Positions 1 to 42,844 of a DNA stretch of 64,000 nt are shown piece after piece; the first letter of the stretch is position 1, and each line of letters begins with the position of its first letter. The position numbers were made by a program, and so were the translations under genes. This DNA is from Marinobacter maroccanus (GTDB lineage Bacteria > Pseudomonadota > Gammaproteobacteria > Pseudomonadales > Oleiphilaceae): positions 372,001 to 436,000 of the forward strand of contig NZ_PSSX01000002.1 in the NCBI RefSeq assembly GCF_002933275.1, given 5' to 3'. The notes below the pieces were generated by a model. That model saw only the letters and a list, made by a program, of their open reading frames with translations, was not told where the DNA came from and did not search any database.

Positions 1-46
1 CAAGCGCACATGGATGTGCTCGTAGCGTGTTTTGGAAAGCATCCCC
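1..46 (+). repeat. Partial copy A of the dispersed hairpin-core element
   Basis: The window opens inside this copy. Bases 1-27 match the cores at 20856-20909 and 40213-40266 when those are reverse-complemented, with one mismatch to each. Bases 6-19 form a GCAC/GTGC stem around loop ATGGAT. From base 30 the sequence TTTTGGAAAGCATCCCCC would be the downstream arm; its partner must lie upstream of base 1. It sits just before valS and has the same orientation relative to valS as the other copies have to their neighbours. Confidence 0.75.
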
Positions 47-99
47 CAAACTCACCGGCACTAACTCCTCAGTCCTGAAGCAAGAAGCCACCTCCAGGG

Positions 100-20785: not shown

Positions 20786-20830
20786 TTTGCTTGAGCTTGG
20801 GGGGCTGCTTTGCTTGAGCTTGGAGGCTGC
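20786..20830. repeat. Two-copy tandem duplication beside element B
   Basis: TTTGCTTGAGCTTGGGGGGC at the start of 20786-20808 is repeated at 20809-20830 with one base deleted and one changed (GGAGGC for GGGGGGC). The repeats abut, and end six bases before the left arm of element B. This looks like a recent slippage or duplication event. Confidence 0.85.
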
Positions 20831-20835
20831 GGTCA

Positions 20836-20929
20836 CAGGAAAAGCCGTCCAAAAACCGCTACGAGCACGTCCATGTGCGCTTGTTTCCGGCCATCCATGG
20901 CCTCCAACATTTTTGGACGGCTTTTCCTG
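20836..20929. repeat. Copy B of the dispersed hairpin-core element
   Basis: Perfect 20-bp inverted arms (20836-20855 and 20910-20929) enclose a 54-base core (20856-20909). The arms read CAGGAAAAGCCGTCCAAAAA and its exact complement. On the minus strand, the direction of apbC and dcd, the core folds into GGCC-ATGGAT-GGCC (20889-20902) and GCAC-ATGGAC-GTGC (20865-20878). The core differs from copy C at about six of 54 positions, yet the arms beyond the A/T run have nothing in common with copy C. The outer GGACGGCTTTT also resembles an intrinsic terminator for apbC. Confidence 0.92.
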
Positions 20930-20971
20930 CGCCCGCGATCGGACCGCGTGCAAGCCCGCTTGCGAATCCGG

Positions 20972-38849: not shown

Positions 38850-40163
<1,314 letters not shown>

Positions 40164-40185
40164 TCATGTTCAAATTTGGGAGTCA

Positions 40186-40293
40186 GAGCGAGCGGGAACG
40201 GCCCTGCGAAAACCGCTACAAGCACATCCATGTGCGCTTGTTTCGGGCCATCCATGGCCCTCTACATTTTCGCAGGGCCGTTCCCGCTCGCTC
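40186..40293. repeat. Copy C of the dispersed hairpin-core element
   Basis: Perfect 27-bp arms (40186-40212 and 40267-40293) surround a 54-base core (40213-40266). The arm ends GGCCCTGCGAAAA on the core side and shares only the AAAA/TTTT junction with copy B. On the minus strand, the direction of kdsA and eno, the core forms GGGCC-ATGGAT-GGCCC (40245-40260) and GCAC-ATGGAT-GTGC (40222-40235). It fills most of the 180-base gap between kdsA and eno. Confidence 0.93.
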
Positions 40294-40325
40294 CCATAGT
40301 CCGCGTAAAACGCCAACACCGCCAA

Positions 40326-42844
<2,519 letters not shown>

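Follow-up and report, generated by a model that had tools for sequence, protein, structure and literature searches.

The ERIC, REP/BIME and MITE-like repeats are short intergenic palindromes that occur in many copies and in both orientations. The TwoAYGGAY motif (Rfam RF01731), as far as its available description goes, consists of two adjacent hairpins with AYGGAY-type loops within a long, poorly conserved outer stem. The motif is listed from the human gut, gamma-Proteobacteria and Clostridiales in a table of PMC2864571, where it is rated as a probable RNA with probably no cis-regulatory role. Binding of CsrA by TwoAYGGAY RNAs has already been proposed in a passage of PMC4333381 that has Clostridia in view, so that the CsrA idea is not new for this class. 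The sponge sRNAs CsrB and RsmX/Y/Z also carry GGA hairpins, which are bound by CsrA/RsmA dimers according to sections of PMC7652899. The same sections report that RsmE binds an ANGGAN loop in which the N positions vary, give RUACARGGAUGU as the SELEX consensus, and mention that a highly stable structure may be a disadvantage for CsrA.

The DNA analysed here is a stretch of 64,000 nucleotides of the genome of Marinobacter maroccanus (the window), which holds copies of a dispersed TwoAYGGAY-like element. New here are the about 100 copies in the genome of this Marinobacter (a lower bound, obtained with model R1 from the best 150 of 1238 candidates scored) and the matches in 79 of 81 Marinobacter genomes, this genome included and many of them at the limit of 47 candidates scored per genome. 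The titles and abstract openings of the papers listed for TwoAYGGAY, CsrA, MITE and extragenic palindromes contained no description of this repeat. The copy between kdsA and eno, element A, has the loop AUGGAU twice, as expected of a TwoAYGGAY RNA, and aligns along the entire RF01731 model. However, the loops of the Marinobacter elements are ANGGAN and not AYGGAY. They also differ from the motif, as its available description has it, in being interspersed in about 100 copies and orientation-neutral, with the core inverted at one site, with divergent pairs, and with an insert domain in loop 2 of some copies. The GGA hairpins recall CsrB and RsmX/Y/Z, with binding here being predicted, but each unit has two sites and no clear promoter or T-run, and there are many copies where the sponge sRNAs have few genes. 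The element shares with ERIC, REP/BIME and MITE-like repeats its many palindromic copies in both orientations, and REP feet lie beside some Marinobacter elements. Unlike these repeats, it conserves two protein-type loops, together with the pairing but not the sequence of its outer arm.

The element between kdsA and eno

The preliminary description of this DNA reported two hairpins with ANGGAN hexaloops and a distance of about 24 bases between their GGA triplets. Both hairpins lie where they were placed, and the triplets of element A are 24 nt apart (Table 1). On the minus strand, which is the direction of eno and kdsA, the hairpins read GGGCC-ATGGAT-GGCCC and GCAC-ATGGAT-GTGC. Together they make up the core of an element of about 110 nt, with arms of 27–28 bp that extend beyond the segment first described. 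The RNA of element A has a predicted folding energy of -85 kcal/mol (z = -12.4), and none of 200 shuffles was equally low. In its predicted free fold, loop 1 is reduced to a UGGA tetraloop by pairing of its outer A with its outer U, and in the minimum-energy fold predicted for copy B hairpin 2 is paired differently. On these predictions the hexaloops would be the protein-bound form, the free form not always being predicted so.

Table 1. Features of the window, with positions counted from its first nucleotide
Feature	Position	Strand	Basis
Element A, whole TwoAYGGAY-like palindrome, kdsA-eno spacer	40185..40294	-	R1 match contig 412185-412294; RF01731 38.6 bits at 40181-40298
5' arm of element A, on GGA strand	40267..40293	-	repeat search: 27 nt, 100% complementary
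Element A hairpin 1, GGGCC-AUGGAU-GGCCC, loop 40250-40255	40245..40260	-	sequence
Element A hairpin 2, GCAC-AUGGAU-GUGC, loop 40226-40231	40222..40235	-	sequence
3' arm of element A	40186..40212	-	repeat search
eno (enolase), downstream neighbour of element A	38850..40145	-	TIGR01060, 683.8 bits
kdsA (3-deoxy-8-phosphooctulonate synthase), upstream neighbour of element A	40326..41171	-	TIGR01362, 379 bits
Element B, between apbC/mrp and dcd	20828..20937	-	R1 match contig 392828-392937
Element B arms	20829-20855, 20910-20936	-	repeat search: 27 nt, 93% complementary
Element B hairpin 1	20889-20902	-	loop ATGGAT
Element B hairpin 2	20865-20878	-	loop AUGGAC
Third element, 3' part only, cut by window start	1..56	+	R1 match contig 371947-372056; window from 372001

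The nearest Rfam family of element A is RF01731, at a score below the cut-off of 43 bits. This cut-off was reached by none of the 34 matches in the own genome (best 42.4 bits) and by none in 12 loci, and the label is therefore limited to 'TwoAYGGAY-like'. The CsrB model RF00018 gave no match in the own genome. The microRNA rows of Rfam, all under their cut-offs, were taken as chance matches to long hairpins. Element B, the second complete copy of the window, has an arm sequence unlike that of element A in the repeat search. The earlier remark that the second loop of copy B, AUGGAC, retains the motif is borne out, with the GGA present and ATGGAT in the loop of hairpin 1. The own genome also has a csrA gene (PF02599, 92.6 bits). 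It is located at contig positions 362420-362575, about 9.4 kb ahead of the window start.

Copies, loops and arms

Pattern matching in the own genome gave 56 matches, two of which were left out as spurious. Two of the remaining 54 copies were left out of the first mismatch count. Model R1 was built from the 54 copies and returned 110 rows, or 104 after six opposite-strand shadows were taken out. R2, a covariance model with the loops masked, returned 103 rows from the best 150 of 1545 candidates scored, corresponding to 95 distinct places once eight shadows were removed. All of these 95 places are contained in R1 rows; nine R1 rows are missing from R2, and eight of the nine are insert variants. 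Exclusion for length removed seven of the 104 R1 rows, leaving 97 full-length copies, and exclusion for poor arms removed five more, leaving 92. The 122 elements of a set of named records were reduced to 118 by length (four out) and to 117 by poor arms (one further out). Copies and species are not fully independent, and p-values are used as guides. Within the class, matches were found in 73 of 369 genomes and 66 of 272 genera, which are lower bounds with the best 10 candidates scored per genome. Among the matches listed, the pattern scan gave 80 loci of at least 108 stretches, and 77 of the 80 come from Marinobacter records. The other three come from a Rhodopirellula bin, a Halomonas bin and Haliea alexandrii. 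The elements in the bins labelled Rhodopirellula and Halomonas (L202 and L211) are of the Marinobacter type and perhaps represent contamination.

The preliminary description had named free loss of GGA from copies that keep the palindromes as a pointer to a function at the DNA level, and had suggested a comparison of loops with stems. Such a loss was not seen. With the loop-masked R2, all 94 full-length places carry CANGGANG in both loops, and it is the arm pairs and the N positions that vary; the training copies of R2 had initially been picked by GGA patterns, and relatives with a quite different core could escape it. Among the copies, all four bases occur at the second position of the loop. 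In the R1 list, loop 1 is retained in all 97 full-length copies and loop 2 in 95, and the two exceptions carry an insert. Among the 118 full-length elements of named records, found with the loop-masked model, loop 1 is retained in 117 and loop 2 is lost in one. A seed pattern containing loop 2 had picked 83 of these 118, and loop 2 is retained in 34 of the 35 elements not picked by it. Judged from these sequences, the loops are probably a protein site, and CsrA is the leading candidate for the putative protein that binds them. In 58 of 95 copies, hairpin 2 agrees with the SELEX consensus at no fewer than 10 of the 12 positions, a count taken without a chance control and with six of the 12 positions fixed by the loop-finding motif. 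Hairpin 1 fits it as well as this in 3 of 97 copies and at only 7–9 positions in 94, again with six of the 12 preset by the motif. The CsrA/RsmA-type site of the preliminary description thus holds at the level of the motif, with ANGGAN kept and a csrA gene present, but the cis control of host mRNAs that was attached to it is not supported. Titration of RsmA, the other role suggested there, may still apply.

The left arms of differing copies have a mean identity of 0.50, yet pairing is found inside each copy. Of 1728 cells in the 54 copies, 96.6% are paired compared with 64.3% after shuffling, and the covariation score is 0.836 compared with 0.202 for shuffled copies and 0.12–0.17 for slid partners. 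Double changes were seen in these copies at 27 of 28 arm pairs, and the outer stem of 27–28 bp closes both hairpins. A count of 29 of 32 pairs with a double change is less telling, with a shuffled mean of 25.3 and a match in 3 of 500 shuffles. Conservation of the arm is partial and covers about the inner 11 positions only. Positions 17 and 18 of the arm are G in 45 and 48 of 52 copies, respectively. Copying of the arms anew from the target at insertion is ruled out by the near-constant arm length, by the G at positions 17 and 18, and by the compensated substitutions in orthologous copies. The GTAG foot of REP/BIME was found in none of the elements of alignment A1; REP feet are found beside the elements instead.

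Folding strand and gene orientation

In the inner 24 pairs of the 92 copies, 2132 of 2208 pairs are Watson-Crick. The others, read on the GGA strand, are 39 G.T, two A.C and 35 of other kinds (including 19 G.G and no C.C). The 117 elements of named records have 83 G.T versus 4 A.C. A cruciform is expected to have symmetric mismatches, whereas a selected single strand is expected to have a one-sided G.T excess such as the one found. From the great excess of G.T over A.C it follows that selection acts on the folding of the GGA strand, and that conservation concerns this fold rather than DNA palindromy. Selected single-stranded DNA of the GGA strand would yield an equal G.T excess. A cruciform or a protein-binding palindrome at the DNA level, with loops that are incidental, would fit the near-perfect arms and the orientation neutrality. 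However, such a structure uses both strands alike, while the mismatches are one-sided for G.T and for G.G in the own copies, and for G.T again in the named records, and the GGA is retained while the arm sequence is not. A DNA-level palindrome is highly improbable on this evidence, and the cruciform-only reading is largely refuted by the strand asymmetry. The G.T excess has the same direction in all four gene contexts, of which the co-directional two alone are not significant (7:1 and 5:0).

The preliminary description read the hairpins in the direction of the flanking genes. This is correct for copies A and B and does not hold as a rule. The 95 best-scoring elements include 24 that are sense and 27 that are antisense to two co-directional genes (51 sites), 24 between convergent genes and 20 between divergent genes, with gene strands taken from a home-made ORF caller. 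The kdsA-eno spacer was compared in 50 of the 81 genomes (30 best matches and 20 picked from partial ones, with remnants and empty sites judged by eye). The core is sense in 23 of them, inverted in 11, and sense with an insert in one; remnants are present in six, and nine are without the element. A full element is thus present in 34 of the 50 genomes, and the orthologous arms differ by compensated substitutions. The sense elements at this site have 21 G.T and no A.C, partly by shared descent, and the 11 inverted elements have two G.T and one A.C, which are too few for showing an asymmetry. In L111 and L119 the flanks and outer arms are common and the cores are opposite. Inversion of the core between the arms is the simplest reading of this comparison.

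It had also been suggested that RsmA/CsrA acts on hairpins in spacers or 3' UTRs and thereby sets the stability of the host mRNAs in cis. Both complete copies of the window are sense to co-directional genes, the element is retained at kdsA-eno, and the Rfam type of RF01731 is Cis-reg, all of which would agree with such control. However, antisense copies are as frequent as sense copies at the 51 co-directional sites (27 versus 24), and of the 34 full-length kdsA-eno elements 11, in other species, have an inverted core. The table of PMC2864571 marks the TwoAYGGAY motif as probably not cis-regulatory, and the G.T excess is also found in copies antisense to both neighbours (5 G.T versus 0 A.C, with few mismatches). 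Cis control of kdsA-eno is unlikely because the elements show no preferred orientation relative to genes and inverted cores occur at an orthologous site, and control of host mRNAs in cis is on the whole improbable.

Arrangement and a possible mobility or role in trans

Own-genome neighbours less than 250 bp apart are divergent in 13 of 13 cases, and lie between convergent (six), co-directional (four) and divergent (three) genes. At 250–1000 bp, four neighbour pairs are divergent and one is convergent. In the named records, all 24 neighbours less than 400 bp apart are divergent. REP feet within 300 bp of 101 elements are found on the left side only (18 CTAC and 15 GTAG cases, versus none on the right), and the 122 elements of named records have 11 on the left and none on the right. 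The unit may consist of two elements placed symmetrically on either side of a REP cluster, and a single copy would be one half of it. Several divergent neighbour pairs lie around REP/BIME, and the outer ends of the pair at L290 are CTAGCCTG and CAGGCTAG.

The family may also be viewed as a selfish, MITE-like element. A mobilising enzyme would then act on the folded GGA strand, in the form of RNA or of single-stranded DNA, and would recognise it by the loops, with CsrA irrelevant or merely exploited. The roughly 100 copies in random orientation, the patchy spread in the class, the inverted cores at one site, the divergence of close neighbours and the left-sided REP feet are in agreement with mobility of this kind. 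However, comparison of filled and empty sites at two loci by eye revealed no clean target-site duplication. At the pair locus, the empty sites comprise eight regions, of which seven were placed; L315, L318 and L319 hold other hairpins, and no duplication was seen. Long persistence at one site with compensated arms argues for a function in place, and ANGGAN is the loop of CsrA. A selfish element of this kind is considered rather unlikely and ranks second among the readings.

The reading that is tentatively put forward, with a little less than even confidence, is that the dispersed TwoAYGGAY-like element is a CsrA-binding RNA that would act in trans, away from its neighbour genes. The GGA strand folds closed into a stem of about 28 bp of largely free sequence around two small hairpins. 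Each hairpin presents an ANGGAN hexaloop, and one face of the CsrA/RsmA dimer binds loops of this form. Any transcript across the GGA strand would then carry two CsrA sites in a ligand protected by the stem, and about 100 copies together could be a distributed decoy for CsrA. We infer that the GGA strand is transcribed, that the protein is CsrA, that binding lowers free CsrA and that this has an effect. Such a trans-acting RNA may further be joined with mobility. With about 100 units and about 200 loops in each genome, a self-spreading family with an invertible core and CsrA sites would be a dispersed reservoir by which CsrA is buffered or hijacked throughout Marinobacter. Its units would stand in divergent, symmetric pairs with REP elements between them, and transcription from either side would meet one sense unit. 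This wider proposal is speculative and appears unlikely. Should CsrA bind the loops, a repeat family present across the genus would have a part in setting the level of free CsrA, and a global regulator would be tied to interspersed repeats. Even if CsrA is not involved, the asymmetry of the strands shows a high-copy bacterial repeat with a single-stranded fold that is selected regardless of the direction of the neighbouring genes. The orthologous sites in many species allow the testing of such a fold.

The best scores of promoter-like sites have a mean of 7.43 on the left side, 7.13 on the right side and 7.22 in two outward controls. This left-side excess is slight and speaks little for a promoter of the element itself. 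A terminator is likewise not indicated, as a T-run of 5 within 25 nt past the 3' arm is present in 0 of 97 copies. The hardly enriched promoter-like sites and the missing T-run make transcription of antisense copies harder to account for and count against the trans-acting RNA, as do the poorer SELEX fit of hairpin 1 and the possible disadvantage of a highly stable structure for CsrA. The right flank from +1 to +50 of the GGA strand is T-poor, with a T fraction of 0.156 in own copies and 0.154 in named records. Part of the wider base skew of the right flank resembles a gene-end effect.

In the copy at positions 423533-423681 of contig C1 and in seven other own copies, loop 2 is interrupted and destroyed by a structured domain of about 80 nt. 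The single copy of this insert that was scanned (L142) had no Rfam match at cut-off. Inserts of about 80 nt in loop 2 are also found in L122, L212, L264, L308–L311 and L313. At an orthologous site, the loop-2 insert is present in some species (L310 and L311) and absent in others (L303 and L307).
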